Below are positions 6,772-26,071 of a stretch of DNA of 26,071 nucleotides, piece by piece. Location of the stretch: positions 1-26,071 of IMG/VR virus record IMGVR_UViG_3300032323_002009, one strand, 5' to 3'. Origin of the DNA: a virus. Under the pieces are notes generated by a model. The model did not search any database, was not told the DNA's origin, and saw nothing but the letters and a program-made list of their open reading frames with translations. A program made the position numbers and the translations under genes. Position 1 is the first letter of the stretch. Each line of letters starts with the position of its first letter.

Positions 6772-6776
6772 GCTAG

Positions 6777-6784
6777 TATTTATA
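6777..6784 (-). promoter_or_regulatory. T4-like late promoter before erpA
   Basis: The minus strand reads TATAAATACTA, a full match to the T4 late box TATAAATA with the favoured CTA after it. With the usual six-base distance to the start site, transcription would begin at or next to the A of the erpA start codon at 6771. Confidence 0.7.
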
Positions 6785-6812
6785 GGGTAAATATGTTTGG
6801 AGACAAAAAAAT

Positions 6813-9683: not shown

Positions 9684-10627
9684 ACCTTAATTTCTATATG
9701 TTTAACAGGACTCCAGTCTTGCCATACTCGCTGTTTGGTGTGATACAATACTGCTCCTAATGCACTACTAGGGTCTCCAGGATTTGGTAAACTCCAGGTA
9801 TGTTCAAAATTCTTAACAACTTGTTTATTAGCAAGGCTATTCATAGCACAGCCACCCATGTAAACTAAGTTATTAGTCTTGATTAACTGTTTTGCCTTAT
9901 ACATAACCAGTTCTACCTGAAACTCAAACATGTCTTGAACTGCGGCTGCAAGGTCACACTTTGCTTGTTCAGTCCATGCGTCACAACTCCATCCAAGAAC
10001 ACCTCGATGGAAATTGTAATCTAATTCCATAATACCAGGCTTGAAGTAGGATGATATGGTATCTTTAAACCTTTTAGGATTTCCACGTTCTGCCATTTGT
10101 TGGAATAGGTATTCATCTCGAATGGGCTGTAGACCAACAAACTTAGTAAATGCAGAATAAAACAGGCCTAGGCTGTGTGGGTAGCTGCGGCTCCATACTT
10201 TCTTCAGCTCTCCGTGGCGGCCTTCCCATATTGTGGCAGACTCAAACTCACCTATTGCATCCAATACAACAACAGCACAATGATTGAATGGGCTTGTATA
10301 ATACCCGGCGGCTGCATGACTAGCATGATGCGGAGTATATGTAATAGGTACACTACCTAATCCACATTGCTTCATACTACGGCTGGGCAATACACTCATA
10401 TCAAACGCTGTACTATATTGCCCGGCCTTTAGTTGACGTGCTTTCTTTACCCAAGGTTGCTCGTACCAAAAGATTCGATCTGGCTTGCCGCTGTGTTCTA
10501 ATTCGTGTTGTATAAACGATTCAGGTAACGTGTCTTGTATAGACTGCGAGCTCGAGATATATTTGTCGTTATGGAATATGGCTAGACTACTGCCATGATT
10601 AAGTGAGTTAATTCCCCAATGTATCAT
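9680..10627 (-). CDS. Carbamoyltransferase, Kae1-like domain only (NodU/TobZ family)
   Basis: A protein of 315 residues that matches the N-terminal Kae1-like half of NodU/CmcH/TobZ: MIHWGINSLNHGSSLAI (ATP-fold start), the metal-binding HHASHAAAGYY (100-110), VLDAIGEFESATIWE (122-135), YMGGCAMNS (256-264) and PNPGDPSSALGA (281-292). Full enzymes are about 550-600 residues and carry a C-terminal YrdC-like domain that makes carbamoyl-adenylate; that half is absent here and no separate copy is visible in the window. The enzyme would transfer a carbamoyl group to a sugar hydroxyl. Its start overlaps the stop of the 37-residue gene (ATGA) and its stop overlaps the methyltransferase start. Confidence 0.87.
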   Translation of the reverse strand: MIHWGINSLNHGSSLAIFHNDKYISSSQSIQDTLPESFIQHELEHSGKPDRIFWYEQPWVKKARQLKAGQYSTAFDMSVLPSRSMKQCGLGSVPITYTPHHASHAAAGYYTSPFNHCAVVVLDAIGEFESATIWEGRHGELKKVWSRSYPHSLGLFYSAFTKFVGLQPIRDEYLFQQMAERGNPKRFKDTISSYFKPGIMELDYNFHRGVLGWSCDAWTEQAKCDLAAAVQDMFEFQVELVMYKAKQLIKTNNLVYMGGCAMNSLANKQVVKNFEHTWSLPNPGDPSSALGAVLYHTKQRVWQDWSPVKHIEIKV

Positions 10628-10742: not shown

Positions 10743-11495
10743 TTATTTACGCTCAATATCCGACTCGTCGCAAAATGTACCGTACTGAATCTCTACAATT
10801 CTGCAGGGCATATCAAACGGGTTTGTCAATTGGTGCCAATCGCCTTGAGCAATTTGATAAGACATGTGTTTAGATAGTTCAACTGGCGGAAGTGAATACC
10901 CGTTGGGCATTGTGGAATTTACCACACATTTGCCTTCGGATACTAACCAATATTCACTCCTATGATCGTGTCTTTGCATACTCAATGACTGTCCCGGTTC
11001 CACTGTTAGTTCTTTAACCTTAGCGCCAACAACTTCGTGTAGTACACGATAGTATCCCCATTGTCGAACTGTCTTGGGAGCTTTCCATTCTTCTAATATC
11101 CAGCTACTAGAATTCTTTTTATCTTCACCACCTACACCAAAAGCAAACTCAACATCATCGAATACCATTTCGGGAATGTTGTCCCGGGTGCGATCGCCAC
11201 CGTTAGCAAAGATGATTTCGTGACCAGGATAGGATTCTCTAACTTTGCGAATTGCGTCAATTGCAGTTCCGTCGTCATCGTTAAAACTGATAACTCTATC
11301 AACATCATGCAGATGAGCAATAATGTTAGCACGCTCTTCCCATGGCATAAACGCTCGACCTTTTTTGCGAGTTAGCCAGGCATCTGAATTGACACCAACA
11401 ACTAATTTGTCGCCTAGCTCTCGGGCGGCTTTAAAGTATGCGGTATGACCGCTATGTAGTGGATCATATCCACCAGTACATACAACTATTTTCAT
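10743..11495 (-). CDS. Cytidylyltransferase-like domain fused to a mannose-6-phosphate isomerase type cupin
   Basis: A protein of 250 residues with two domains. Residues 1-135 are a cytidylyltransferase-like (TagD/RfaE-C type) nucleotidyltransferase with TGGYDPLHSGH (HxGH, His14/His17) and GVNSDAWLTRKKGR. Residues about 145-250 are a type II PMI-like cupin: LSMQRHDHRSEYWLV (171-185), GDWHQLTNP (218-226) and VEIQYGTFCDESDIER at the end. The pair suggests activation or epimerisation/isomerisation of a phosphosugar for glycan synthesis. GTGAGG at 11500-11505 is the ribosome binding site, and an extended -10 lies just upstream. It heads the 11495-9132 operon with the carbamoyltransferase and methyltransferase-like genes. 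Confidence 0.88.
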   Translation of the reverse strand: MKIVVCTGGYDPLHSGHTAYFKAARELGDKLVVGVNSDAWLTRKKGRAFMPWEERANIIAHLHDVDRVISFNDDDGTAIDAIRKVRESYPGHEIIFANGGDRTRDNIPEMVFDDVEFAFGVGGEDKKNSSSWILEEWKAPKTVRQWGYYRVLHEVVGAKVKELTVEPGQSLSMQRHDHRSEYWLVSEGKCVVNSTMPNGYSLPPVELSKHMSYQIAQGDWHQLTNPFDMPCRIVEIQYGTFCDESDIERK

Positions 11496-11556: not shown

Positions 11557-12600
11557 ATGGATCAAACGCCCGGAAAACCGATTAGAACATACGCAGAAAA
11601 TGGACAATGGAGAGATTGGAGCACAGATGAGTTAGTGGGTGCTAAACTAAATTACATTTCGGGTTGGAAATGTGGTGCAGGTGTTGACAGCCTATTCATT
11701 GATATGGACGGATTTGTTTGGACAGCTAGTTGTCGTGTGGGTGGTCGTTTGGGAAATGTTTTTGAAGATTTCAGGGTGCCTGATTCCTGGATCAACTGCA
11801 CTAGAAACGTTTGCAGTTGTGGTGCAGACCTGTTTATTCCCAAGACACAGAAAATAGATTTTAAGCCGTTGTTACGTAGAGGTCAAGGACTGCCAACAGT
11901 CCCAGAACTGCGTAACGATACACTAACAGATTTTGTTGCAGTAGAACGTACTCATGCAAGTACTCAAAAACAAATCTATTGGGAAATTAGTCGCAGGTGT
12001 AATTATGACTGTTCCTATTGCTGGCCGTGGATACATAATAAAACAGATCCGCATAAATCATTAGAAGAACTAATGAAGGCAACGCACAATCTAGAACAGC
12101 ACTTTACCAAAGGCGAAAGCGTTAACTTTATCATCAGCGGTGGCGAACCCACTGTTAACAAAGATTTCTTAGATTGGTTACGTTACCTAAATGCTATGGG
12201 GCATCATGTTAGTCTGCACAGTAACGGAAGTCGTTTACCAGAATATTATAGAGAGATCATTCACTATGGCGACTTGAATCTTAGTGTACACTTCGAATTC
12301 TATGATAGAGCAAAGTTTGTTAAAGTAGTAGAAGCAGTTGCACATGAGAAGGCAACAGCAGGGGGTAACGGGCATCTTGAAATTAAGTTTATGATGGCAC
12401 CTCATAATCGCGAAGAAACTCTTAGTCTTGAAGAAGAATTAAAAGCATTGCCTCACTTTACAGATTATTGTACATGGGCAGTTGTACCAATCCGAGGTGA
12501 CTTAAATAATAAGAACAGTGCTCCTAACCAAGGTTCAGGTAGTGAAGTTATGGAAGGTTATACTAAAGAAGATTACATACTATTTGGAGATCGAAAGTAA
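11557..12600 (+). CDS. Radical SAM enzyme with N-terminal five-Cys module
   Basis: A protein of 347 residues. The radical SAM cluster motif CxxxCxxC is Cys148/152/155 (RRCNYDCSYC), with the SAM-binding ISGGEP at 193-198 and SLHSNGSR downstream. Ahead of it, residues 37-88 form a module with Cys39, 59, 81, 86 and 88 (GWKC...C...C....C.C) that probably binds an auxiliary Fe-S cluster. The same module with nearly the same spacing closes the 941-residue protein at 21842-24667. Such enzymes do radical chemistry on a peptide, sugar or lipid-linked substrate; the substrate is unknown. The gene is read from a late promoter and the next gene starts at the base after its stop. Confidence 0.9.
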   Translation: MDQTPGKPIRTYAENGQWRDWSTDELVGAKLNYISGWKCGAGVDSLFIDMDGFVWTASCRVGGRLGNVFEDFRVPDSWINCTRNVCSCGADLFIPKTQKIDFKPLLRRGQGLPTVPELRNDTLTDFVAVERTHASTQKQIYWEISRRCNYDCSYCWPWIHNKTDPHKSLEELMKATHNLEQHFTKGESVNFIISGGEPTVNKDFLDWLRYLNAMGHHVSLHSNGSRLPEYYREIIHYGDLNLSVHFEFYDRAKFVKVVEAVAHEKATAGGNGHLEIKFMMAPHNREETLSLEEELKALPHFTDYCTWAVVPIRGDLNNKNSAPNQGSGSEVMEGYTKEDYILFGDRK

Positions 12601-15180
12601 ATGGTAATGGATAAAGATACGTGGATTGCAGAAAATGTATTTCCAAAAAATACACAACCTAACGAGAGAAAACTTAGACAAAATGTAAAATCAGTTGAAG
12701 TAGCAGTTGCTACTAGAAAAACTAAAATAACATTTTGTATACTAGGCAGCTGGGCAATCTATATGCCTCCTTACAATCTTTCAAGATTGTCAGCTCTAAC
12801 TAGAGAAGCAGGGTACTACACACGAGTGTTTGATTTTAATGTAGAGTCTCATTATGCATTAAAGGATGCAAATCCAGATTTAGCAGATGCATGGAATGGA
12901 GCCAATTATTACTGGTGGCAAGAACCTGAATATTCTACAAGAATTTTCCCCACATACGAACCTATCTTAAAAAATTATTTAGAAAAGATATTAGAAGAAG
13001 ATACAGATATAATTGGGTTTAGCACGTATTATACTAATTTTCATGCAACAGAGTGGATGATTGATGAAATTAAAAAACGCAAGCCCAATGTTACTATTAT
13101 TATGGGTGGGCCGGAATGTCATCAACAGAATTTTGTAAAACCTAAAAATGCTGATTATTATTTTATTGGCGAAAGCGAACAACATATTTTAGATTTTTTA
13201 AACAACTGGGAAGCCTCGATCAAGCCATCACAACCCGCAATCGGTAGTTTGTACAGCGATACCAGAATTGATATTGACAGTTTACCATACCCTGACTATT
13301 CAGACTTTGATTTAGAAAAGTATTGGGGCAGGAATTCGATTTGCGCTGAAATTAGCCGTGGTTGCATTGCCAAATGTACTTACTGCACAGAAGTGTACTA
13401 TTGGAAATTTAGAGATAGAGGTGCTACAACAGTTGTAGATGAATTAGAATACCAAGTTAAAAAATACGGAATTAATTTTGTATCGTTCGTTGACAGTTTA
13501 ATGAACGGCAATTTAAAAGAATTTAAAAAATTCTGTGAAACTTTAGTTGAGCGTGATTTGGGCATAACTTGGTGGGGATATGCTCGTGCCGATGGAAGGA
13601 TGGATTTAGAATTTTACAAGTTAATGAGGGCTGCCGGTGCCCAGGGATTTAACTACGGCATTGAATCTGGCAGTGATAAAGTACTGAAACTTATTAATAA
13701 AAAGAATACAGTTGCTGAGATTAATCAAAACATTATCGATAGTGATAAAGTAGGCATGCGTGTATCCGCATGTTGGGTAATAGGTGCTCCTGGAGAAGAC
13801 ATTGAAGCATTTACACATAGCTTTAATATGTTATGGAATCATCGTGCAAGAATTTTGGCAGTTAGCCCCGGCCCCGGCCTCGGCGACAATCTAGGTTCCG
13901 ATTATGACAATCGTGAAAAATATAATATGAACCCTAGGGGCCAACAATTTTTAAGTGGTTGGTATACTCTAGATATGATGAATACTAGATTGCACCGTAT
14001 GGTTAGAATTAAACTTATGCACATCTGGTTATATTTGTGTAAAAAGTTCGGCGGCAGAGTAGACAACGTTCATTCAGTCGGTGATATTACTGATCATTTT
14101 TCTGTAGAGTTTCTTGATGACAATACGCTAAACGACAGCGTAGAATATGAAGATTTTGACTATAACATTATCAAATCAGGACATGGGGATTTTGCTGATA
14201 GTTTGATGAATGAAATATTTGGATTTTTAAGAATGTTATGGCGAGTAAAAGGTGGATATGAAATCACCGTCGAGTTTAATGATACATTAGATCACAAAGA
14301 TTTTATATTTGTCATTAACCCAGAGAAGTATTCATACAGTTCAAGAATACGATTTAAAATCGATGATAATGGTAACTATGATGTTTTGAATACTTATAAA
14401 TTTGAAAATTTTGACAAATCGGTAGTCGATCAGTCTAATTTTGAGTATGTATATGAATCATCTGGTCAATGGAAAGATATTAAAAAAACTAAAACTAGAA
14501 AAGTTTTCTATATAGAATCATCGAGTCGCCCAATTCAGCTCCCATTAGAAAGTTGCTTCTCATCGATGGGTGTATCAGAAAGACAAGTATTACACGAAAT
14601 TTCTAGAAATATAGAAACAAATGGAGTTGTGGTTGATATTGGTTCTAGTTTAGGAGGACGATCTGCCATAATAGCTAACGCCAATAAAACATTAACAGTA
14701 TATCTAGGTGACCCATATTCAGAAGATGTTTTAGCTGACTGTAAAAATATGTTAAACGAACAGTGGTTAAAGGAACAACTAATTGATGTTGGAAGAAACC
14801 TAGGATATGATAAAAACAAATCGATAGAAATACTAACTACGTTAAAAGAAAATTTTGATCACGACATTACTGGTAAATTTGCAAGAAGAGAAATTATAAA
14901 AAATTACCCAAATATTACAGTAATCGAGTCTTACACAAAACCAGAGTATTTTAAATGGCCAGCGACAATTAATATGTTAGTAATTTCCTTATCTGATACA
15001 GAAAGATTGTTGAACAGTCTAGAATACTTTTCTAAAATCTTAGCCGAAGATGGAAAGATACTAGTTCACTTATATGGTATTCACGATAATATCACCGATG
15101 CTGTAAATAAGTTTATCGGGACTGAATGGAAAATAACTCGCCAAGTAGAAACTTTAGTGATTATTAAACGAGAGGTTTAA
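12601..15180 (+). CDS. B12-binding-like / radical SAM enzyme fused to a C-terminal methyltransferase-like domain
   Basis: A protein of 859 residues. Residues about 42-205 resemble the B12-binding-like domain of BchE/HpnJ-type enzymes (PPYNLSRLSALTREAGY, IIGFSTYYTNFHATEWM, IIMGGPECH, YYFIGESEQ), though the cobalamin His motif DxHxxG is not seen. The radical SAM cluster is Cys255/259/262 (SRGCIAKCTYC) with a TIM-barrel to about 420 (VSFVDSLMNGN, YGIESGSDKVL, WVIGAPGED). A linker leads to a class I methyltransferase-like fold from about 640 (VVVDIGSSLGGRS, 676-688). The protein is longer than usual class B enzymes (about 450-650) because of this fusion. ATG 12601 directly abuts the previous stop; ATG 12607 is possible. 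The 3' end overlaps the convergent SGNH gene by 17 bp. Confidence 0.9.
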   Translation: MVMDKDTWIAENVFPKNTQPNERKLRQNVKSVEVAVATRKTKITFCILGSWAIYMPPYNLSRLSALTREAGYYTRVFDFNVESHYALKDANPDLADAWNGANYYWWQEPEYSTRIFPTYEPILKNYLEKILEEDTDIIGFSTYYTNFHATEWMIDEIKKRKPNVTIIMGGPECHQQNFVKPKNADYYFIGESEQHILDFLNNWEASIKPSQPAIGSLYSDTRIDIDSLPYPDYSDFDLEKYWGRNSICAEISRGCIAKCTYCTEVYYWKFRDRGATTVVDELEYQVKKYGINFVSFVDSLMNGNLKEFKKFCETLVERDLGITWWGYARADGRMDLEFYKLMRAAGAQGFNYGIESGSDKVLKLINKKNTVAEINQNIIDSDKVGMRVSACWVIGAPGEDIEAFTHSFNMLWNHRARILAVSPGPGLGDNLGSDYDNREKYNMNPRGQQFLSGWYTLDMMNTRLHRMVRIKLMHIWLYLCKKFGGRVDNVHSVGDITDHFSVEFLDDNTLNDSVEYEDFDYNIIKSGHGDFADSLMNEIFGFLRMLWRVKGGYEITVEFNDTLDHKDFIFVINPEKYSYSSRIRFKIDDNGNYDVLNTYKFENFDKSVVDQSNFEYVYESSGQWKDIKKTKTRKVFYIESSSRPIQLPLESCFSSMGVSERQVLHEISRNIETNGVVVDIGSSLGGRSAIIANANKTLTVYLGDPYSEDVLADCKNMLNEQWLKEQLIDVGRNLGYDKNKSIEILTTLKENFDHDITGKFARREIIKNYPNITVIESYTKPEYFKWPATINMLVISLSDTERLLNSLEYFSKILAEDGKILVHLYGIHDNITDAVNKFIGTEWKITRQVETLVIIKREV

Positions 15181-16003
15181 CTTTATCAGCAACAACTATG
15201 GCAAATTCTTTAACTGCCTCCAGACTAGGGTGGCGGTTGTCTGGTGATACAAACTGTTTTCTTTCGGTAATCAGAGTTTGCCAAGATTCTGATAGCCAGG
15301 GGTATTGATTTTTGTTAAAATTAATCCACTCATCTCTATCAAAACATTTTTCGTGGTTAAAAGGAATACAACTGTCACTAAAGCGAGTGTTCGAATACAT
15401 CATGGTATCAATGTCTTCGATATCAAATATTTTGCCTAGACTTTTCCAAAATGTATAAGATATATTGTTTGATTTTAAATAACTCTGTAAAAGAAATACA
15501 TTCTTAAAGAAATTATAAAAATGATCTTTTGTGTCAGGGTTTATTATAGTTTCTTTTATATACTCACGGTACTCTTTATAACTTTTATCATCTAGGTGAG
15601 CACAAGTTAAATTAAAAAATAACCTTCTTTCTACTAGCCACTTAATACGTCTAGTAAATTCTGTCCAACCTATACACACATGATATTGTTGACGTTCTTC
15701 TAGGGATAATCTATTAAGAAATCCTATTGTCGTCATGGCAATATTATCATTTGAATTGCCGTCTACAGATATATCAGTTACATCTGTAGTTAATAGTTTT
15801 TCAAGTTGACCCTTTAAATTATCTACAGGTCTTAAATTTGAATTATAATGTATTCTATATTGTTCTATCTGATTAGTGGAATATATGGGATGTATCTTTC
15901 TAGAGGCAATATATTTTACCCAATCAATATCAGGATGATGTATGTTCCATGTTAAAGCATCGCCGGCTACGAAACTACATCCGTTTAATAATATTTTTTT
16001 CAT
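15164..16003 (-). CDS. SGNH/GDSL-type hydrolase
   Basis: A protein of 279 residues with the SGNH blocks in order: NGCSF with the probable nucleophile Ser10, a GNSND at 82-86 (block III-like), and SPDNRHPSLEAVKEFA with Asp255 and His258 in the DxxH spacing. The middle part (IGWTEFTRR) matches the phage version of this fold, usually annotated only as hypothetical. Such enzymes remove or transfer acyl groups on glycans. It is the last gene of the seven-gene minus operon, eight bases after the radical SAM gene, so it probably acts on the same product, for example as an esterase or O-acyltransferase. No signal peptide is seen, so it is cytoplasmic. Confidence 0.8.
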   Translation of the reverse strand: MKKILLNGCSFVAGDALTWNIHHPDIDWVKYIASRKIHPIYSTNQIEQYRIHYNSNLRPVDNLKGQLEKLLTTDVTDISVDGNSNDNIAMTTIGFLNRLSLEERQQYHVCIGWTEFTRRIKWLVERRLFFNLTCAHLDDKSYKEYREYIKETIINPDTKDHFYNFFKNVFLLQSYLKSNNISYTFWKSLGKIFDIEDIDTMMYSNTRFSDSCIPFNHEKCFDRDEWINFNKNQYPWLSESWQTLITERKQFVSPDNRHPSLEAVKEFAIVVADKVKPLV

Positions 16004-16011
16004 TTAATGCT

Positions 16012-17175
16012 CTAACCTCGATAGCTATTTGCCGTTATAATATTTATTATTCGCTTATTAGTTTCAGTTTCTCTAGTAAGTTGTTTTTGATACCAGTTCG
16101 CAATTTGCTTATTAACAAAATGATCTAATTTTTCCCAATTACCGTGTGCTACAAAATTTGAAAAATCAGTGGGTTTAAGTTCTGCAACACGAGGTCGTAA
16201 TGTCTGTAATATTACACTAAGATCACTACTAGGCAGTTTCCATATACTTAAATGTTCAGGATGATGAATAGTATTATACCACAAATTAACGCTATTTTCA
16301 GTTGTAAACTTTACAAACTCCGGCATTTCCCACCAGTTGTTATTCATGGGATTGACCATTACACTAAGTCCACGATTATGTTCTTTACAGTACTGATTAA
16401 ATGTTTTAAAATTCTCCATCAGTGTATCAAAATCACCGTTGATTCTAATGGCTTCATAATTGTCTTTATCTAGACTATCGATACTAATATTCAAACTTAT
16501 GTTACATTTGGCCAGTATTTCTCTAACCTGTTTATTATATACTGTGCCATTAGTAGCGATGTTAATTCTTAAGCCAGGATTAATCTCTGCAACCAACATG
16601 CAGATATCATATACAATCTTTTGTGCAAACGGTTCTCCACCATTAAATCTAAGTTCTTCTAGGTGAGGTATAAACTCTTTTAGTTGTTCTACAAAGCTAT
16701 CATCATATACCTGCGTCATAGGAGGCAACTTGTCTCTGTTCTTGCGTATGCCAGAACTCAATCTACCCTCACACATAACGCATTCTAAATTACATTGATT
16801 ACTAAGTTCTAACTCTAACAATGTAGGATATTCTTTTACCGTAAACCCATCATAGGCCATAGCTAGTGGCCATGTGTCTGCTTCTATCTTCTGCTTGCAT
16901 ACTCTGCACTCACTTTTGAAAATACCTTCTTTTAGATTGTTTCTATATTCAGTAAACTTTTCTCCAAACCATATATCTTTAATAGATCTATTAGTGGACC
17001 ATTTGTCTAATTTGCCTACTAATAACCAACAGGGTGCTACATTTCCCTCTGTTGTGAAATACATATTATTATAAGGTGCAATGCACGGACTAACAGTGTT
17101 TATATCTCTGCTTTGGTCAAATGCTTTTCTTTTTGTGTTATATTCTGCAATTTGATCTGATGTTAAGTTATTCAT
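16012..17175 (-). CDS. Radical SAM enzyme with N-terminal twitch-like Cys module
   Basis: A protein of 387 residues. The radical SAM motif is Cys128/132/135 (NQCNLECVMC), with GGEP at 179-182 and NIATNGTVYN and SIDSLDKDNY downstream. Before it lies a module with Cys31, Cys49, Cys90 and Cys93 (SPCIAPYNNMYFTTEG, VAPCW, ECRVC) that probably holds an auxiliary [4Fe-4S] cluster, comparable to a SPASM/twitch domain moved to the N-terminus. Unlike its three upstream relatives it has a single Cys, not Cys-Cys, at the second position. It overlaps the preceding gene by 8 bp. Confidence 0.9.
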   Translation of the reverse strand: MNNLTSDQIAEYNTKRKAFDQSRDINTVSPCIAPYNNMYFTTEGNVAPCWLLVGKLDKWSTNRSIKDIWFGEKFTEYRNNLKEGIFKSECRVCKQKIEADTWPLAMAYDGFTVKEYPTLLELELSNQCNLECVMCEGRLSSGIRKNRDKLPPMTQVYDDSFVEQLKEFIPHLEELRFNGGEPFAQKIVYDICMLVAEINPGLRINIATNGTVYNKQVREILAKCNISLNISIDSLDKDNYEAIRINGDFDTLMENFKTFNQYCKEHNRGLSVMVNPMNNNWWEMPEFVKFTTENSVNLWYNTIHHPEHLSIWKLPSSDLSVILQTLRPRVAELKPTDFSNFVAHGNWEKLDHFVNKQIANWYQKQLTRETETNKRIINIITANSYRG

Positions 17176-18340
17176 ATTTGCATCCCATAATCATTTGGCC
17201 CCATTCTCCGGAGACTTCGTTGAAACTCTGATTTCTGAATTTATCTAACTCAGTTGTCCTAGTAATAAATTCTTGGATCAGATTTTCGTCTTCGCAGGGC
17301 AAATGTAAAAAGTTTTTAACTTCAACAAACTCTGGGGATGTTAATCTACTGTCAACAATCTGCTTGAGTTTTACAGGTAGGTTCTTGATACTATTACAAG
17401 GATGATAATGTAGAATATTAAAGTGAGCGTATATATCAAATTGCCTGCTCCACTCCAGATATTCTTGCATATAATAAACGTTATAGATACTAACTGTTGG
17501 GAACAAGGTCAATGAGATATTATTGTTTAACGAGCGCAGTTCTATAAACTTCTGTAAGTTTTCTTCTATTGTTGCCCATTCTGCTGGGTATCGTTGATAT
17601 TCCAATCTACGACCAATATCATCTATTGATAAACAGATTGTTACATGTTTGAATTTTGGCAACAAGTTAATAAACTTCTTATTGAATAGGGTGCTGTTTG
17701 TGTTTAACAATAATGTGATTTCTTTTGCTCTACCACTATTGATTAATAACTCTAAAACTTTAATATTTTCAGGACTGGCCATCGGTTCGCCGCCAGTTAT
17801 TTCAATATGTGATAGTTCATTAGCCCATTGTCTAATTATCGGCTCATTAGCAGTGCCTAGAATCTTGTTTGATAACCAGTATTCGCCGTCCTCTACCTTG
17901 ATATTAAATTGCTCTTGATATTCTTTTAAGAACGTGGAACTAGCTTGTACACCACATATTCTACATTTTAAGTTACAAACATTATTGAGTTTTAAATCAA
18001 GTGCTAGAGGTCCCTTATTGGCTTTAGCGGTAAACTCAATATCGTCTAGTGACATATTTCTATGTTTAGCAAAACTTGTTCTAAAACTAGGCACACCGGC
18101 GGCGTCTTCGTCCCAGCAAGTTTGACATTCTCTGGGCTGTTTACCATCTAAAAATGCTTGTCGTAAATTTTGAAATCGTTGATCATTCCATAATACATCT
18201 AGACTGCCTTCTTTCATATTAGGCAGTTGATATTCATTTGAAATATCCGGCTGTGCAAACTTACAGCACGGACGCAGTGAGCCATTGACGTCTGTAGATA
18301 GATTGATCCAAGGTAATGGGCAAAATGTTTTAGGTATCAT
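17168..18340 (-). CDS. Radical SAM enzyme with N-terminal twitch-like Cys module
   Basis: A protein of 390 residues. It starts with FCPLPWINLSTDVNG and has Cys7, Cys25-Cys26 (RPCCKF), Cys72 and Cys75 (ECQTCWDEDAAG) as the auxiliary module. The radical SAM site is Cys122/126/129 (NVCNLKCRIC), with ITGGEP at 181-186, LLLNTNSTLFN and SIDDIGRRLEYQR. The last motif and the module are shared with the 457-residue enzyme just upstream, so the two are paralogues. No C-terminal SPASM domain is present. It overlaps both neighbours (11 and 8 bp). Substrate unknown. Confidence 0.91.
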   Translation of the reverse strand: MIPKTFCPLPWINLSTDVNGSLRPCCKFAQPDISNEYQLPNMKEGSLDVLWNDQRFQNLRQAFLDGKQPRECQTCWDEDAAGVPSFRTSFAKHRNMSLDDIEFTAKANKGPLALDLKLNNVCNLKCRICGVQASSTFLKEYQEQFNIKVEDGEYWLSNKILGTANEPIIRQWANELSHIEITGGEPMASPENIKVLELLINSGRAKEITLLLNTNSTLFNKKFINLLPKFKHVTICLSIDDIGRRLEYQRYPAEWATIEENLQKFIELRSLNNNISLTLFPTVSIYNVYYMQEYLEWSRQFDIYAHFNILHYHPCNSIKNLPVKLKQIVDSRLTSPEFVEVKNFLHLPCEDENLIQEFITRTTELDKFRNQSFNEVSGEWGQMIMGCKYE

Positions 18341-19703
18341 ATTTTTTTATTATACTATAAAATTCTGTAAATGTTGATTGAAAAGATTCCCGTCTGTATT
18401 CATCGTGCATCTGTGTTTTCTTAAAAAAAGTTTTCAGTAATTCCACGTTATGCTCCGAACCATACATAAAGTTAATAATATTTTCTATACCGGGTGATTC
18501 CCTGGATATCAAATTTGTAAGATCAATAGACAGTAACTTTTCTTTTACTCTATCCTTAACTTCAGTAGGAAGATTGACAATAGAATAATGATGTGGATAA
18601 TGTACCATGTTAAAAACTAATTCGATGCCTAAATCTCTAATTGCCTCAACAAATTCTTTCAAATAAAACACGTTTAGAATTCCCACCGTAACGTATATTC
18701 TTAACTTCATATTGACGTTGTGGAGTTTCGCAAATTTTTTGTACTGATGAATGTTGTTTAGGGATTCGTCCCACTTGGCATTTTTCCTCTGATACTCAAA
18801 TCTTTCTCCTATATCATCGATACTGAAGTTGATAATAACTTCTTTAAATTTCTTCCACAATTTAAAAAAATCTTCGTTACAAATGCTTGAATTAGTATTG
18901 TAGTATAAACTAGTATTAGACGGCGTACCGTGACCATACATAATATCTAAAATCCTATCATGCTCTTGTTGCATTAACGGCTCGCCACCGTAAAATTCTA
19001 AGTAATCAATGCCAGGGGCCCATTCTTTAAGAATAGTTTCATTTTTTGGATTTTCTAAAAACTTTTCTTTAGAGTTACCAGTAAAGGATTCCATAGTACC
19101 CATATCGATGATTTTTAAATCTTTAATTTCTTTAATCCACTGACTGCTTAAAAATGGTGTACAAATTCTGCATTTAAGGTTACATAAATTACTCAGTTTA
19201 ATATCTAATGTTTTTGGATACACCCTGGGAATGTGATGAAAAAATGTTGCAAATGGATGTTCTTTACCACCAGCTTCTCTAGTTAATCGCATACTTTGAA
19301 TTCCAGCAGCTTCTTCATCCCAACAGGCCTTGCATCCATCCGGGCGTTCATTTCTTAAAAACTTATCACGAAGTTCTTGAAATTCTTCTTGTTCCCACAA
19401 AGCTCCGATGTCGTCAGTTGGCAGCTTAGGTACATTATCTTGCCATGATGCATCGCCTACTTTATACTTACAGCAAGGTCTTGCCCTACCATCAGGATCC
19501 AGTTGAAAATGAGCAAAGGGATATAAACAAAAATTATCTGGCACCTTCTGTTCCAGTAGTGGAGTCCATGGGTCGCTACTAGCAAGTATGTCACTGATGC
19601 CTAAATTATAATCTTTATCTAATTCTTTAGCAATTGCCCTAGGAATAGCATTTTCTGTTTTATCTCGAATCTTGAATATTTCTATAAAAACTCTTTTATC
19701 CAT
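18330..19703 (-). CDS. Radical SAM enzyme with N-terminal twitch-like Cys module
   Basis: A protein of 457 residues. After a 55-residue helical lead, FCLYPFAHFQLDPDG opens the auxiliary module with Cys59, Cys77-Cys78 (RPCCKY), Cys124 and Cys127 (CKACWDEEAAG). The spacing C-x17-CC-x45-CxxC equals that of the 390-residue paralogue. The radical SAM site is Cys174/178/181 (NLCNLKCRIC), with YGGEP at 238-242 and SIDDIGERFEYQR. The longer N-terminus and a longer C-terminus (about 400-457) set it apart. It overlaps both neighbouring genes, 8 and 11 bp, so the operon is translated as a coupled series. Confidence 0.91.
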   Translation of the reverse strand: MDKRVFIEIFKIRDKTENAIPRAIAKELDKDYNLGISDILASSDPWTPLLEQKVPDNFCLYPFAHFQLDPDGRARPCCKYKVGDASWQDNVPKLPTDDIGALWEQEEFQELRDKFLRNERPDGCKACWDEEAAGIQSMRLTREAGGKEHPFATFFHHIPRVYPKTLDIKLSNLCNLKCRICTPFLSSQWIKEIKDLKIIDMGTMESFTGNSKEKFLENPKNETILKEWAPGIDYLEFYGGEPLMQQEHDRILDIMYGHGTPSNTSLYYNTNSSICNEDFFKLWKKFKEVIINFSIDDIGERFEYQRKNAKWDESLNNIHQYKKFAKLHNVNMKLRIYVTVGILNVFYLKEFVEAIRDLGIELVFNMVHYPHHYSIVNLPTEVKDRVKEKLLSIDLTNLISRESPGIENIINFMYGSEHNVELLKTFFKKTQMHDEYRRESFQSTFTEFYSIIKKYDT

Positions 19704-21102
19704 GATATAATTCCTTGCACATGTTATGAAATTCTTGATACTCGGGGAACGTTTTTACTAAGTTAAGATTACGTCTTTGATCAAAAGTGTTGTACCATTC
19801 GTAGAACTTCTTTCTATCCGCTGTATAATCACCTGTATTGTTTTTCATACTTTCTTTCAAACTCTTTAGGAATATCATATATTGATCATATCGTCCAAAG
19901 AAATCGGTAACGTTCGGCATTCTAGATACATGTTGCTCCATGTATTCAATTGTATCATTTAGATAGTTCGAAAATTCTGGAGGCAGTATCATTGGGTTTT
20001 GCCACGATGGAAAATTAACAATATTCTGTTTTAATCCAACTGGCCTATTGTACTGATCCGATAAGTTAGTTGCGTACTCGATAAAATCTTTTGTAGTAGC
20101 GATGCTCAACGCACTAATCGACATTAAAAACCCAACTTGAAATTTAGTATCAGTGATCGAGAACAGTTTATGTACGTTTGAATTAAATCGATTCCATGAA
20201 ATACCGTTTCGAATATATTCTGCTCGGTCATTTAATGATTCCATGCTGATCAATATTTCTAGATCAAATGCTTCAGTAATCTTCGGAAGTCTTTCAATGA
20301 ACCTATTAAAATAATTTGCTGGAGTATTAAGATTTGTCACAATACATAGAGTTGGTCTTAAATTCTTAATAGGCATGATCTCAGTAATACGATCTGCCAT
20401 ACGCTCTACATATTCATAAAATTCAGGAATGATAAGTGGTTCTCCTCCTATCATATTGACACGATGTATGTGCCAGCAGCCTACCTTATCAAACCATTCC
20501 CAATACTTTGTTTCAAATATAGATGAAGATTTAGGAAACTCCCTATCATACTGTTCTTGAGTAATTTCTCCTAACTTGATCAGTTCAGTTGCCCACTGTG
20601 TTGAATAATGATGATTACAATACATACATTTTAGATCACAGGTATTTCCCAAACTAATTTCCATCATGTAGGGTTTCTTAGCTTTTAGAAAAGGATGATC
20701 TAGTGAATTAATTTTTCCCAATTCTGCTCTAACGTTCTCTTCTGTATATTCCATGTCTCGTGGAATGACTTTTTCACGTTTTAAAAAATTCCAAAAGTTT
20801 TCAGGCTCTCTTGGACTTTTCATTCCTCTGTCTTCAAGGTTCCAGCAGCTCTGACAATCAGAGTGGCGTACTCCTTGGATTAGGTCTAACCTGCTTCTAA
20901 CAAGATGGTCGTTGTTGAGAAAAGCATTAATACCTTTTTCTTGTAACAGTGATTCGGGAATAGGTACTGACGGAGTGCGGCAGCAACTTCTAAATTCACC
21001 TCGATCAATTTGAAATATAGGATAATTCCATTTGAACTCACACATAGTATCCATTGGATTACCTTTGCTAGGAGATTCGGGTAATATTGGTATTGTTTTC
21101 AT
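19696..21102 (-). CDS. Radical SAM enzyme with N-terminal twitch-like Cys module
   Basis: A protein of 468 residues. The auxiliary module has Cys21 (MCEFKWNYPIFQIDRGEF), Cys40-Cys41 (SCCRTP), Cys83 and Cys86 (DCQSCWNLEDRGMKSPRE). The radical SAM site is Cys155/159/162 (NTCDLKCMYC), with MIGGEPL at 217-223, VTNLNTPANYF and SMESLNDRAEYIRNG. It is a more distant relative of the two enzymes downstream. Its start overlaps the sulfotransferase stop by four bases (ATGA). Substrate unknown. Confidence 0.91.
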   Translation of the reverse strand: MKTIPILPESPSKGNPMDTMCEFKWNYPIFQIDRGEFRSCCRTPSVPIPESLLQEKGINAFLNNDHLVRSRLDLIQGVRHSDCQSCWNLEDRGMKSPREPENFWNFLKREKVIPRDMEYTEENVRAELGKINSLDHPFLKAKKPYMMEISLGNTCDLKCMYCNHHYSTQWATELIKLGEITQEQYDREFPKSSSIFETKYWEWFDKVGCWHIHRVNMIGGEPLIIPEFYEYVERMADRITEIMPIKNLRPTLCIVTNLNTPANYFNRFIERLPKITEAFDLEILISMESLNDRAEYIRNGISWNRFNSNVHKLFSITDTKFQVGFLMSISALSIATTKDFIEYATNLSDQYNRPVGLKQNIVNFPSWQNPMILPPEFSNYLNDTIEYMEQHVSRMPNVTDFFGRYDQYMIFLKSLKESMKNNTGDYTADRKKFYEWYNTFDQRRNLNLVKTFPEYQEFHNMCKELYHG

Positions 21103-21845
21103 TTGGTGTTTTTAAATTTTTGATAAAGATCTAGTAGTTGATCGTAGTTCGTAATAAGTTTACTATATGGTAATTCGTGTACTGGAAAAATATGTGCATT
21201 TTTCATTACGAAACCTAACTGTTTAATATCGTTAGATATGTTATCATATCTAAGTTCAATAGTCTCAACTATGTCGCTAATCATCCTCCTACTAATATCA
21301 TCTCTGACTGCCATGAGTAGTATTCTTGTAAAATTTTTTGGACATATAGTAAATGGTTCAATCTTTGTTTTGTTTTGTTTGCCTTGAAAGGTAGTATGAT
21401 ATTGATTACCATTCTCTTTAAACAAATGTACAATGGATGTTTGATCCATTACTGCCCAACTTAGTGCTCTTGAAAATACATCCCTGTGCAAAGAAATAAA
21501 TTTAAAATTACATGCTTCTAAATTTTTAACAAGTTCTAAATAATCGATAAAGTTAAAAAAATAATCCTGTGGGAATAGTCGCATAGTTAATGATTGACTA
21601 TGATCTCCGTTTACTATCATAGACATTCTATCATTAACCAGTTCTTGATCAGACATACGTTCTTGTTTTCCAGGAACGATTTGATTGTTCCCAGTCAACA
21701 CAAATTGTTCATTTTTAGCAACATACGGATGAAAAAATTCACCCAATCTCCGCGGATTCACACCTTTATATTCTAGATTTCCTAAAACAACAAATTCTAA
21801 CCATGTACTACCACTTCTTGGTCCGGCAACAATACAATATCTCAT
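21099..21845 (-). CDS. Sulfotransferase
   Basis: A protein of 248 residues with the PAPS-binding 5' loop PRSGSTW at 9-15, right after the first strand, and the 3'-phosphate-binding element FISLHRDVFSRALSW (116-130) with Arg121 and Ser125. This matches bacterial and phage sulfotransferases that move sulfate from PAPS to sugars or, less often, proteins. No PAPS-making gene is in the window, so host PAPS must be used. It overlaps both neighbours by four bases (ATGA) in the radical SAM operon, indicating a shared product. Confidence 0.88.
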   Translation of the reverse strand: MRYCIVAGPRSGSTWLEFVVLGNLEYKGVNPRRLGEFFHPYVAKNEQFVLTGNNQIVPGKQERMSDQELVNDRMSMIVNGDHSQSLTMRLFPQDYFFNFIDYLELVKNLEACNFKFISLHRDVFSRALSWAVMDQTSIVHLFKENGNQYHTTFQGKQNKTKIEPFTICPKNFTRILLMAVRDDISRRMISDIVETIELRYDNISNDIKQLGFVMKNAHIFPVHELPYSKLITNYDQLLDLYQKFKNTK

Positions 21846-24667
21846 GTCTTTTCCTTACTGCTCATTATATCAAAATTACAGTGGCACATTGTGCTACCAC
21901 ATACTACTGGACCAATTGATAAGTTTAACTCGGGGTCAGTAATGCGACCAATCATGCCACCTTCCTTGCACCAGCCTCTATGAACGCTGCCATCCTTATC
22001 AACAATTAGTTGTTCAACTCCTGCATAGCATTTCCAACCCGACCAGTCGTTTGTTTTGTCGCTGACAAATCTTTGTGCGCTGGATACTTGTTTGTTACCG
22101 TCTGGAAAGAGTTTAACCATCGCACCGCGATAGTAGTCAAAGGTCTTTGTATATTTGATATGTTTAACAATCAATTCGTGTTGCTTGTCAAAGATTTTCT
22201 TTTGGAATTCATTATAGTCGTATAAAGTATCACCAAAGTCATGTATTAGTGGTTGTAATGCCATTGATATGTTGCCCAGATTCTTAACCTTATTAGCTAC
22301 AGCATAACAGAAGTCAAACTTCTCGGGACTCATCATAATGTTTACGTGAGTGCGTAGATCATTGTGTAGTATCTTAACAACTTCGACAAAATGTTTTTCA
22401 TCAGCTTCTTCTGGATGGAAACTCAAACACACATGATCAAAATATTGTTTGTTTTCTTCCCAGTAACGTAGTGTACGACTGCCGTTACTGATTAATCCAA
22501 CTTTAACACCTTGCTCTGTGCAGAACTGACACAGTTCAATAAAGTGCTTGTATAGCGTAACTTCACCACCTGTGAATTCAAAGTATAATTTCTTATTAGG
22601 GTGTGCCTTCTTAATCTTTAGAATAAAATTCTTAATAACATCTAGCTCAGGCCAAGGAATAGATGCATCGTGTAGATCTTTTGGACAATAGCTGCAACTA
22701 AAATTGCAGGTATTACCCAAACACCAATTGACGACAAACCAATCTGCATGTTCTGGGTTTGAGTGGGCTAACTTTGTGTATACTGTAGGATCGACTACAA
22801 TCTCTTCTCGCTTAACAATCTTAATAGGCTTATAATTAAAGACTGAAGGCTTCTCATTTTTAAACATTGTATATAACCATTCTCCGTTATTTATTTGCTG
22901 TAATTCTGGTGTATCGTAATTCTTATCAAAGAATGCAACGGCTGCTGCTGCTCCAGCTAGGGCATAATTACCATAGGGTTTATCTAGTCCAACTGTTTTC
23001 CATCTATCTAATCTAAAACTGGCATCCTTGTCATTGGGGTCTTTCTTGATTGCATCACACAATTTAACAACTTCTCTAAAGGCACTGCGCCAAGTAGAGT
23101 ATTCATCTGTATTAAATGCTGTAATGTTACTAACAGTATCAACTACCTTTAACTTAGATGCTACTGTTGAGAACAAGTCCAGTGTATTCCAACTTTTAAT
23201 TTTAGTTAATGCTTTTCTAGGAAAGAGCTTAACTCCACCATACCCATATGTTAAATCGTTTACAGGGTTACTACTGTGCCAAACATATGCACAGTCTCTA
23301 TCAAATATACCAGGCTGAAAGTTAAACTGCCAATCGTCAATTAAATATGCATCTCCGTCTACAACAAAGAACATGTCTGTCTTTGCTAACTTAGCAGCTG
23401 CCTTGTGTGCATTAAAGATACCTTTAACACCATCCACACGTTTTGCCCACGGAGCTTTCTGTAATACCCGTTGCCAGTTAGTTTCTGCATTGGACTCTTT
23501 ATAAGAAATAAAGACAACATCTAATTGATCCGCAAACAAGGGAGTTACAAAGCCTATTTCTTTTTCACCAGCAGGGCTATTAGTAGCCTGCATCTGAACA
23601 CACCAAACTTTAGGGTCACTATTGTTTAGATACCATACATGTTTGTAGGCTAGATCATGCCAAGGAATGATATAATCTAATTCATATTTCATCTTAGGAA
23701 GATCTGAATTGTGTTCTATAGTAAATGTAGGACTTATGTAATCTATAATTTTAGATCCAACCTGATCAGATGTAACTTGAATTTTAAACGCCCAGATGTC
23801 TTGTTCGCCATCATTTAAATGTTTTCTATCCAACATCCAGACATGTTCATACTTAAAATCATACCACGGAATAACATAATCTAACTCGTAGTCTAAATTA
23901 GGCAACACTGGATTATATACGACATGATACTGCGGGCTTACAATTCCCATCCATTTCCATTCTTTGGGCTTACGCCAATTGGGAGTAAATTTAACCACCC
24001 ACATACGTTCAGTTAGTTCAGGAGTTTGATGCATAGGATCTAGTTCATATGCACATTCGTTAGACAACTCCCAGAAAGGCGGATAGCACTCGTCTAGGTT
24101 GATGCCTAGACCGGGTAAGTGTTCATTGAAATCAACAGCAACGTCCGGAGTTAAATATCCCATATCTTTTATGCCTGTAATTGCTCTACCGGAAGTATGT
24201 ACTGACATTGCCCAAACTTTGTCACCAGTAGGATCGAATCTAGGATCAACGTACCAAACTAGCCGGTAATTTCTTTCCCACCTCTCAGGTTCGTAGGAAC
24301 TAAACGGATCATCCACAAAGGTCATTAATTTATCTAGCTCTGGATTCTTTGCCCAGACGCTTTTAGGTTTAACAATCTCTACAGTTTCGTAACCGTGGTA
24401 GGGATACCACCCATCTTTGAATAATTTAGCGACCCAATCACCTTGATAGGTAAACACAATGCATTTTCTACTGTGTGGAATTTCTTCTATATAGTGCTTA
24501 AGACTGCGGTGCCACATGTCCTCTATATCACGGTTTGGCAAAATTGCTAAAAATTCATCACGGCCTTCACCAAGTTCATACAATTGAAGGTCGTAGTGAA
24601 GATCATTGCCTTGCCATTTTACGACAGCAACTTGATCAGATGGGAGTTGGTATATATTGTCTAGCAT
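21842..24667 (-). CDS. Giant fusion: repeat region, glycosyltransferase-like domain, radical SAM domain, C-terminal five-Cys module
   Basis: A protein of 941 residues with four parts. Residues about 130-380 hold repeats that begin at Trp152, Trp223, Trp292 and Trp355, the best copies ending YELDYxIPWxDxxYxHVW. Residues about 381-480 look like a GT-A glycosyltransferase core (LDVVFISYKESNAETNW, then VVDGDAYLIDDW with a DxD at 437-439, and GYGGVKLFPRKAL). The radical SAM domain has Cys654/658/661 (NTCNFSCSYC) and TGGEV at 699-703 in place of GGEP. The end carries Cys880, 900, 923, 928 and 930, a module shared with the protein at 11557. It is the first gene of the seven-gene operon. ATG 24667 lies in an mRNA hairpin and has no clear ribosome binding site. 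Confidence 0.88.
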   Translation of the reverse strand: MLDNIYQLPSDQVAVVKWQGNDLHYDLQLYELGEGRDEFLAILPNRDIEDMWHRSLKHYIEEIPHSRKCIVFTYQGDWVAKLFKDGWYPYHGYETVEIVKPKSVWAKNPELDKLMTFVDDPFSSYEPERWERNYRLVWYVDPRFDPTGDKVWAMSVHTSGRAITGIKDMGYLTPDVAVDFNEHLPGLGINLDECYPPFWELSNECAYELDPMHQTPELTERMWVVKFTPNWRKPKEWKWMGIVSPQYHVVYNPVLPNLDYELDYVIPWYDFKYEHVWMLDRKHLNDGEQDIWAFKIQVTSDQVGSKIIDYISPTFTIEHNSDLPKMKYELDYIIPWHDLAYKHVWYLNNSDPKVWCVQMQATNSPAGEKEIGFVTPLFADQLDVVFISYKESNAETNWQRVLQKAPWAKRVDGVKGIFNAHKAAAKLAKTDMFFVVDGDAYLIDDWQFNFQPGIFDRDCAYVWHSSNPVNDLTYGYGGVKLFPRKALTKIKSWNTLDLFSTVASKLKVVDTVSNITAFNTDEYSTWRSAFREVVKLCDAIKKDPNDKDASFRLDRWKTVGLDKPYGNYALAGAAAAVAFFDKNYDTPELQQINNGEWLYTMFKNEKPSVFNYKPIKIVKREEIVVDPTVYTKLAHSNPEHADWFVVNWCLGNTCNFSCSYCPKDLHDASIPWPELDVIKNFILKIKKAHPNKKLYFEFTGGEVTLYKHFIELCQFCTEQGVKVGLISNGSRTLRYWEENKQYFDHVCLSFHPEEADEKHFVEVVKILHNDLRTHVNIMMSPEKFDFCYAVANKVKNLGNISMALQPLIHDFGDTLYDYNEFQKKIFDKQHELIVKHIKYTKTFDYYRGAMVKLFPDGNKQVSSAQRFVSDKTNDWSGWKCYAGVEQLIVDKDGSVHRGWCKEGGMIGRITDPELNLSIGPVVCGSTMCHCNFDIMSSKEKT

Positions 24668-24698
24668 AATACTAATTATCTTAGTATTTAACTGCTAG
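24661..24698 (-). promoter_or_regulatory. Start-codon hairpin with an internal late-promoter-like box
   Basis: An inverted repeat of two stacked stems: CTAGCA (24661-24666) with TGCTAG (24693-24698), and ATACTAA (24669-24675) with TTAGTAT (24681-24687), loop five bases. In the minus-strand mRNA the UG of the start codon at 24667 is paired in the outer stem. The opposite arm contains GTTAAATA followed by CTAA (24692-24681), two mismatches from the T4 late box. A late start near 24679 would leave that arm out of the transcript and free the start codon. This resembles the known late control of T4 gene e. Confidence 0.5.
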
Positions 24699-24705
24699 AA
24701 ATATA

Positions 24706-26071
24706 TTAGGTAGGGAAGGGCACAAGGTTAGTGTTGACTACCCAGGTTTCCGGACTAAAGGATGTTGCTTCAAATCCTCTAAACAGTTGTGTTCTAAGAT
24801 CGCCGGGTTGCGGCGTTTCTAATTGATAGTATCGAGTAGGATAATCTATAGCAGAATAATAGTGGAACGCTCTAGTTAAATTTTCCATCGTTATATCAAA
24901 TTCAGCATCGCCCGATAACTCTCTAAGGTTATTGATATTGATATTAACAGTTCCGTAACCATCATACTCAACAACAAACATAGATCCCACACTTTGTTCG
25001 TAGCCAAAATAGTCAGCATAATTTAGTCCTTCTGTAGTTTTCCTCATATACATCGGGAATCCATCGCCTCCGATTTCTCCACTTCGATATGTACCTGCAG
25101 ATACTAAAGGAATACTGTATACCGTTGACCAATAAGGGTAGGGCTGCTCAATTGTAGCTGTACCAATCGCTAAATTTCTTAGAACTGCAAAGGCTGCGCC
25201 GCCTGCTGCGTATATTGGAGTACCGTCGCCGCCTGCTCCGACACCAATGGTAAGAGTCTTAACGCCAGCAAATATATCAAAGCTAACGCCAACAACACTG
25301 TTGTAACTAGCTGCCGGACTTATCCAAGTAGATAAGTTTTTATATTGTGTATAGTCAATATTAACTGTACTTGAATTAGTAACACTAATAATATCAGACA
25401 GCGCCGAAATAGTTAGAACCGAAGTATAGGGAGTTGTTGAATTTGCATTGTTAACAAGATCAGGGTCCCAAGTGATACTAACCGAGTTACTGCCTGTAGT
25501 AACTTCCCAACCAGGATCTCCCGCCAAAGAAGTAACAATATTCAACGGATAATCAGTATCGGGAATACCGTTGAATACGGGTGTAAGGAATATAGTTTCA
25601 GTTACAGATTTGCCAAGCTCAGTTGTATTAACTATAAAGGTAGTAGTAGATGCTCGAACTTCAACTGTTTCATCGAGAACAATTTGATTTGTAAACAAGG
25701 TTACTGTGCTGATACCTGCTGTAGTTTCTATAGTTAGATAACTGGTAAAATCTCCAATGTCGGTACCATAATAGGCCAGTTCAATATTTTGCGATGCACC
25801 GGCTGCAAGAGTATAGGATCCCACAGCAGAATGCAACACAGGATAAGTCCCAGGTTGACCAAATATAGGAGGAGGAATAGAAAATGTAGGTCTGTAAGGG
25901 AAACGAGGAAACACTGTGATTGCAGCATTGCCTACATTGGATATTGTAATATTCTGTTTGAAGGGCAGTGTCCAGGCTTTTAATACTTCGTTAGTCCCAG
26001 TTCCGTATGTGGCCAGTACCTGTAGGGTGGATGTGTTACCTAATGGAAATTCAAAATCTGTAGGTGAACTA
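24706..26071 (-). CDS. Large virion-type protein, C-terminal part only
   Basis: The frame is open from 26071 to TAA 24706 (455 codons incl. stop) with no ATG before 25914, and the part upstream of 25914 reads as coding (FEFPLGNTSTLQVLATYGTG, ITISNVGNAAITVFP), so the start lies outside the window and ATG 25914 is internal. The composition is Thr/Ser/Val/Gly-rich and beta-strand-like, with segments such as NITISNVGNAAITV that resemble Ig-like (ASPM/SPD-2 or DUF1573 type) repeats. A Gly/Ala-rich part (IGVGAGGDGTPIYAAGGAAFAVL) follows, then an aromatic-rich C-terminus (YYSAIDYPTRYYQLETPQPG). It is probably a fibre, whisker or decoration protein of the virion. It lies just upstream, on the same strand, of the radical SAM operon. 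Confidence 0.78.
   Translation of the reverse strand, partial: SSPTDFEFPLGNTSTLQVLATYGTGTNEVLKAWTLPFKQNITISNVGNAAITVFPRFPYRPTFSIPPPIFGQPGTYPVLHSAVGSYTLAAGASQNIELAYYGTDIGDFTSYLTIETTAGISTVTLFTNQIVLDETVEVRASTTTFIVNTTELGKSVTETIFLTPVFNGIPDTDYPLNIVTSLAGDPGWEVTTGSNSVSITWDPDLVNNANSTTPYTSVLTISALSDIISVTNSSTVNIDYTQYKNLSTWISPAASYNSVVGVSFDIFAGVKTLTIGVGAGGDGTPIYAAGGAAFAVLRNLAIGTATIEQPYPYWSTVYSIPLVSAGTYRSGEIGGDGFPMYMRKTTEGLNYADYFGYEQSVGSMFVVEYDGYGTVNININNLRELSGDAEFDITMENLTRAFHYYSAIDYPTRYYQLETPQPGDLRTQLFRGFEATSFSPETWVVNTNLVPFPT

Follow-up and report, generated by a model that had tools for sequence, protein, structure and literature searches.

Phage genes that alter surface sugars are known from the Gtr serotype-conversion cassettes of temperate phages, which rely on the membrane proteins GtrA, GtrB and GtrC, and phage O-antigen modification normally requires membrane proteins. 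In bacterial flagellin glycosylation islands, soluble cytoplasmic enzymes adjoin the filament protein genes, flagellin being a filament that is glycosylated in the cytoplasm. For Che8-type mycobacteriophages, Freeman and colleagues reportedly described in 2023 phage-encoded glycosyltransferases (GTs) that decorate virion proteins, and we know of no radical S-adenosylmethionine (rSAM), sulfate or carbamoyl tailoring there. Phage virion glycosylation is published (cited in an excerpt of PMC12619734). According to excerpts of Nishimura et al. (2017; PMC5332604), marine T4-like phages carry up to 12 rSAM genes together with iron-sulfur (Fe-S) assembly genes, and rSAM cassettes are reported with no mechanism from pelagimyophage host-recognition islands (PMC7029224). 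Here we analyse a 26,071-base linear IMG/VR record from an aquatic phage (IMGVR_UViG_3300032323_002009, the whole of which is called the window), in which seven rSAM enzymes share an island with a GT and with sulfotransferase-, SGNH- and carbamoyl-type enzymes. The analysis suggests that such phages build a coat of unusual chemistry that can change, probably one carried by their own attachment proteins.

The window resembles each of these systems in part. It shares with the T4-like marine phages an A-type Fe-S carrier and/or IscU and many rSAM genes (12 in TARA_ERS488813_N000010), but the excerpts of PMC5332604 give these as a listing of auxiliary genes, without a glycan link, gene order, GT or virion neighbour, or mechanism. 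The pelagimyophage host recognition cluster, a hypervariable island beside tail fibres, also combines GTs with rSAM cassettes; there, however, rSAM genes are noted in passing, no sulfotransferase is mentioned and host O-chain modification is proposed (PMC7029224). The Che8 GT is among the structural matches of the window GT to viral models. In one bacterial phylum, rSAM homologues adjoin flagellin genes in two genomes, whereas the window is phage DNA with no flagellin, and the acceptor would be a Ser/Thr-rich protein, adh. The island differs from the Gtr cassettes in having no membrane protein. An earlier note on this DNA knew of no described phage pathway of such make-up, which is too strong, because rSAM-rich phages are published, although without a mechanism (PMC5332604, in excerpt; PMC7029224). 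In open-licence full texts we found no publication that joins rSAM-rich phages or cassettes with virion glycosylation. New here are a conserved pair of rSAM proteins (core and rS+A) that is linked to a GT and to a virion-like protein, the swapping of the array for NAD-dependent epimerase/dehydratase genes, the connection to flagellin, and a hairpin at the start codon of the GT gene.

Results

Judged from its genes, the island may be an exchangeable cassette with which a tailed phage of lytic type tailors glycans and decorates a phage adhesin, a reading to which we give an about even chance. A minus-strand unit runs from adh over 38 bp to a 941-aa GT+rSAM gene, and on through a sulfotransferase-like gene and four twitch rSAM genes (Tw4, Tw3, Tw2, Tw1) to an SGNH-like gene. 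From the 941-aa gene onwards the junctions are overlaps of 4, 4, 8, 11 and 8 bp and one 8-bp gap, exactly as the earlier note had described them, and every open reading frame (ORF) lies where it had been placed. The rS+A gene and a B12-type rSAM gene, on the plus strand, are convergent to this unit. The features of the island are as follows.

24706..26071, minus strand: adh, Ser/Thr-rich, Cys-free and mainly beta; presumed virion adhesin or fibre component
24660..24699, minus strand: hairpin at the adh/GT junction, with the ATG of the GT gene in its 3' arm
22853..24667, minus strand: N-terminal part of the 941-aa protein, with repeat domains (residues 1-377) and a GT-A-like domain (about residues 378-605)
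21845..22780, minus strand: rSAM core domain of the 941-aa protein (residues 630-941; "core"), with a C-terminal SPASM-like Cys set
21099..21845, minus strand: sulfotransferase-like protein with a PRSGSTW P-loop; fast-evolving
19696..21102, minus strand: twitch rSAM Tw4 (NF033640, 237 bits, over the cut-off)
18330..19703, minus strand: twitch rSAM Tw3 (NF033640, 337 bits)
17168..18340, minus strand: twitch rSAM Tw2 (NF033640, 311 bits)
16012..17175, minus strand: twitch rSAM Tw1 (NF033640, 163 bits, slightly below the cut-off of 170)
15164..16003, minus strand: SGNH-like protein with NGCSF (block I) and DNRHPS (block V)
12601..15180, plus strand: rSAM protein with a B12-binding domain (B12rS); C-terminal part apparently like a class I methyltransferase
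11557..12600, plus strand: rS+A, an rSAM protein with an N-terminal SPASM-like Cys set, partner of the core

The strongest argument for a glycan pathway is that the adh-GT pair is constant while the tailoring set is exchangeable. Close relatives of the window were retrieved through its nucleotidyltransferase-cupin gene, and the backbone common to them (nucleotidyltransferase-cupin, methyltransferase, endolysin, IscA, ligase and HNH genes) is about 60-95% identical. In two of these relatives (our loci L131 and L133), three NAD-dependent epimerase/dehydratases (E 1e-33 to 1e-43) replace the array, and the same slot holds a 2OG-Fe oxygenase, two SGNH-like genes, a transketolase-like gene and one twitch rSAM gene. 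In a third (L138), the slot holds two B12-type rSAM genes and SGNH-like genes, and the match to the core in its record is only partial. In these relatives, adh and the GT part persist farther upstream, at 56-57% and 61% identity, but the GT has no fused rSAM core. Because adh and the GT persist while the contents of the slot differ, adh-GT is the constant element and the tailoring set the variable one.

The array itself keeps its order across phages. The core was confirmed in 86 viral stretches, and 79 phage loci carry it, 51 of them non-redundant. The GT is fused to the core or lies no more than three genes upstream in 37 of 48 loci, and in other phages the GT part is a separate gene. Another rSAM gene is present in 50 of 51 loci, and at least three in 35 of 51. 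L008, L009, L010 and L014 repeat the full order core, Tw4, Tw3, Tw2, Tw1, SGNH, followed by B12rS on the opposite strand, and L023 and L054 keep most of it. The scattering of these genes in relatives, which the earlier note had named as evidence against a common pathway, was thus not observed. The largest records with the array reach 524 kb, with up to ten twitch-family matches per record. In Vibrio phage K566 (L094), three annotated rSAM genes lie close together with several genes of no assigned function. K566 may be a tractable relative, and the distant phage KVP40 (about 22% identity) has two rSAM genes.

All seven rSAM assignments held: Pfam Radical_SAM is over cut-off in 7/7 of the genes in which CxxxCxxC sites had been noticed, and composition shuffles of all window ORFs predict 0.06 such sites by chance against the seven seen. 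The accompanying GGEP-type motifs had been ascribed to every gene; GGE[P/V] occurs in six of the seven and is missing from the B12-type gene at 12601. In the core, CxxxCxxC lies at residue 654 and GGEV at residue 700. The predicted B12-binding domain is present (PF02310, E 1.1e-10) and stands ahead of PF04055, the domain arrangement of B12-dependent rSAM methyltransferases, and the protein reaches no equivalog cut-off. Its C-terminal part (14518-15180, plus strand; VVDIGSSLGGRS) resembles a class I SAM methyltransferase, and a similar protein of 200-230 aa is a separate ORF in other phages. Tw2, Tw3 and Tw4 pass the curated cut-off of 170 bits for NF033640 (N-terminal twitch rSAM); Tw1 falls short of it, has Pfam SPASM and Radical_SAM domains and behaves like a twitch rSAM protein. 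In a profile search of the PDB, the best solved relative of the core is the peptide epimerase YydG (E 4.6e-6), only slightly ahead of tetraether lipid synthase and viperin.

All non-redundant homologues examined retain CxxxCxxC (core 49/49, rS+A 33/33, twitch 142/142, B12-type 31/31), so that the degradation in related phages which would have spoken against function is not seen; the core count leaves out one further match, a GT half without rSAM. rS+A is 71-87% identical across nine other viral loci aligned. The dN/dS values of the rSAM genes are mostly below 0.15, to be taken as rough bounds because synonymous sites are near saturation. The rSAM genes are under strong purifying selection, and the SGNH-like, sulfotransferase-like and adh genes evolve faster.

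The gene immediately upstream of the GT is adh in all eight cases (8/8; window, L016, L012, L014/L224, L054, L220, L221 and L222), at a distance of 26-39 bp. The 454 aa present here are truncated by the window edge; the full protein has 508 aa (L007). Its Ser/Thr content is 22%, against 9-13% in the island enzymes of the window. In a jumbo lineage, another protein rich in Ser/Thr (f4, 27%) lies beside tail-region genes and precedes the GTs, and phages 121Q and Atu_ph07 have homologues of the protein upstream of it (f6) among their structural and tail-fibre genes. By eye, an f4-like N-terminus is apparently fused to adh at L224:10553-12691; such a fusion appears to link the virion-like proteins of both phage lineages. 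A PHROGs scan gave no family for adh or f4, and neither f4 nor the separate GT (f2) has a match among annotated phages. Of seven adh/GT junctions folded, six form a stable hairpin (z -3.8 in the window and between -4.0 and -7.2 in five relatives), and at five of its pairs both partners have changed; the L224 hairpin has z -1.4, and L054 does not keep it. The hairpin may control translation of the GT relative to adh.

The DxD core that had been noticed proved to be a confident GT-A fold (AlphaFold, residues 1-629, 36 homologues; mean pLDDT 88), and the DGDxx motif is conserved in A3. Residues 378-597 match GT-A enzymes (B4GALNT1, Z 11.1, 136 residues, 2.7 A), about as well as they match nucleotidyltransferases of the same fold (IspD), so that fold alone cannot separate the two. 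The top Foldseek matches are the peptide S-glycosyltransferases SunS and ThuS (E 1e-4), with polypeptide GalNAc-transferases within the top 50. The VIA-align rows gave no sure family for the GT domain.

The PRSGSTW P-loop of the sulfotransferase-like protein is kept in 32 of 33 homologues. In the SGNH-like protein the Ser block is kept in 22/22 homologues, and the Asp of DxxH in only 11/22 by a crude motif match. Neither protein has a Pfam or PDB match. A carbamoyltransferase is present, in a short 315-aa form that comprises the N-terminal (Kae1-like) half; the protein is not of the Nod/TobZ O-carbamoyltransferase type, which has Kae1-like and YrdC-like halves, as only Carbam_trans_N matched. 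This short form has a constant length of 313-316 aa in other phages, and close relatives have full-length forms. It is not strictly tied to rSAM genes, 8 of 11 loci having no rSAM neighbours in the flank examined. The nucleotidyltransferase-cupin and methyltransferase-like genes are present as well, but as backbone genes also found without the rSAM array. As a pathway marker the nucleotidyltransferase-cupin was rejected: it occurs in at least 598 viral stretches, and of the 80 loci read few carry the rSAM core.

Beyond the plus-strand rSAM pair lie the nucleotidyltransferase-cupin, short carbamoyltransferase and methyltransferase-like genes and an endolysin; the rest of the window holds a collagen-like fibre, DNA ligase, IscU and two A-type Fe-S carriers. 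The features located there are as follows.

10743..11495, minus strand: nucleotidyltransferase-cupin fusion, a phage-group backbone gene
9680..10627, minus strand: short carbamoyltransferase, Kae1-like half only, 315 aa
9132..9683, minus strand: methyltransferase-like protein, a phage-group backbone gene
7195..7521, plus strand: second A-type Fe-S carrier
6813..7190, plus strand: IscU-type Fe-S scaffold
6448..6855, minus strand: A-type Fe-S carrier (IscA family), a possible cluster supply for the rSAM enzymes
3801-4310: HNH endonuclease, in which a CxxxCxxC is present that is not an rSAM site
3-3101, minus strand: tail-fibre-like protein (Pfam Collagen) with Gly-X-Y repeats rich in Thr/Ser

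The window and the rSAM-rich relative L210 have IscU plus two A-type carriers; in L131, L133 and L138, where the array is incomplete, the stretches examined show only one A-type carrier. This is a small sample. The pattern fits a supply of Fe-S clusters by the phage to its own rSAM enzymes, as suggested generally in excerpts of Nishimura et al. (PMC5332604). The collagen-repeat protein is possibly another glycan acceptor. No hydrophobic or membrane segment was found in any island protein, all of which are soluble. Megablast of the window against phages and an Rfam scan gave no match, and scans for sigma-70 promoters and terminators stayed near background.

A pattern scan for the core in 84,980 prokaryote genomes gave two cellular loci, an undercount, since in one bacterial phylum a profile search found the core in 13 of 291 genomes. 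Neighbours there that are called flagellin, Wzm/Wzt, GT2 and SGNH-like were named by eye from sequence. In a Bdellovibrionaceae metagenome-assembled genome (MAG), two flagellin genes flank core and rS+A. In L121, from another genome of the phylum, two flagellin genes come first, then two twitch rSAM genes, a core gene and one like rS+A; a GT2 and a full-length carbamoyltransferase lie close by. Other regions combine SGNH, core, twitch, GT2 and rS+A (L117) or carbamoyltransferase, core, B12rS and SGNH-like genes (L119), and in an Oligoflexia MAG (L092) core, twitch and rS+A adjoin Wzm/Wzt-like genes. Beside the rSAM genes of the latter, an 83-aa ORF with a Gly/Cys-rich tail (L092:3444-3695) resembles a peptide precursor. 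With flagellin in two of about 17 regions read, the linkage of the bacterial homologues is suggestive and no proof.

Discussion

In the mechanism that we propose, a soluble GT-A enzyme co-encoded with adh would glycosylate adh in the cytoplasm, as happens to bacterial flagellin. The rSAM set (the core and rS+A pair, four twitch enzymes and one of B12 type) would alter the sugar, candidate reactions being epimerisation, dehydrogenation, deoxygenation and C-methylation, and the sulfotransferase-, SGNH- and carbamoyl-type enzymes would add or remove groups. The phage IscU and IscA proteins may help load the many Fe-S clusters, and the product would be carried on the virion. Since the enzyme sets differ between phages, the coat would vary. 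The earlier note had proposed a phage-borne glycan pathway acting on the host envelope or on virion fibres. Its glycan part gains from the slot swap with NAD-dependent epimerase/dehydratases and from the bacterial homologues beside flagellins, an exporter and GTs, and the choice of target leans towards a virion protein. Several observations weigh against such a pathway. The glycan itself is a prediction from gene content; sugar genes form a modest share of 120 downstream ORFs in phage loci (4 epimerase, 2 DegT, 2 NTP_transferase), no glycan gene lies near the homologue in L122, L124 and L126, and only two bacterial regions of about 17 show flagellin linkage. Peptides are frequent substrates of SPASM/twitch rSAM enzymes, and YydG is a peptide epimerase. 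adh belongs to no known virion family, its AlphaFold model is of low confidence (mean pLDDT 54.7) and was therefore left out of the fold search, and the T4-type late promoter ATAAATA is found before adh/GT less often than by chance.

A virion adhesin as the target, which has about as much for it as against it, is more likely than the host envelope. A cassette that alters the lipopolysaccharide or capsule of the infected host, to block adsorption of other phages or ease progeny release, would agree with the interpretation of GTs published for pelagimyophage host-recognition islands (PMC7029224). It would also agree with phage HTVC008M, where rSAM, methyltransferase, full carbamoyltransferase and UDP-glucose dehydrogenase family genes lie away from structural genes, with the resemblance of the nucleotidyltransferase to HldE domain II and with the Wzm/Wzt-like neighbours of the Oligoflexia homologue. 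Yet the island has no flippase, polyprenyl-phosphate GT, ligase or membrane protein of any kind, the constant neighbour of the GT is adh and no envelope gene, and exclusion would gain little for a lytic-looking phage (no integrase was seen in the window); we regard a host target as unlikely, if a serious contender. Direct action of the rSAM enzymes on amino acids of a virion protein, which they would epimerise or cross-link while the GT adds sugar, is improbable. The match of the core to YydG, the SPASM-type Cys sets and the Cys-rich short ORF near one Oligoflexia homologue speak for it; the array is nevertheless swapped with NAD-dependent sugar-type genes at the same locus, adh is Cys-free, and YydG barely leads two enzymes of other kinds. 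Moreover, no gap in the minus unit exceeds 38 bp, which leaves no room there for a separate precursor gene of a ribosomally synthesized and post-translationally modified peptide, though one may lie elsewhere, and no precursor-like small ORF fits between the genes. A mixed version, in which phages use a bank of radical enzymes to remodel sugars as well as the protein backbone of their own adhesin (epimerised or cross-linked residues) and so obtain a variable virion surface that resembles none described, seems rather far-fetched to us.

Two further explanations do not involve surfaces. rSAM and Fe-S genes are commonly classed as auxiliary metabolic genes (PMC5332604, in excerpt), but we give very little weight to cofactor or small-molecule synthesis, given the fixed position beside virion-like genes and a GT and the swap with sugar-type genes. 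We give next to none to modification of nucleic acid by a deazaguanine or hypermodified base pathway: weak QueE-like PHROG matches hint at it, as do QueC and thymidylate synthase matches in flanks of some phages, but QueE scores far below its cut-off, a scan of window genes gave no QueC, QueD or FolE, and such a pathway does not account for the sulfotransferase, SGNH and carbamoyl genes.

If glycan tailoring of a phage adhesin is the function of the island, many uncultured aquatic phages, including those represented by contigs of several hundred kilobases, would make an unusual glycan with enzyme types that bacteria employ for antibiotics and cofactors, and would vary it by cassette swaps, comparable to bacterial O-antigen variation. 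The surplus of rSAM and Fe-S genes that has long been noted in marine viruses would then have a function, with a named acceptor protein, and these phages would hold a large untapped pool of possibly sugar-acting radical enzymes.

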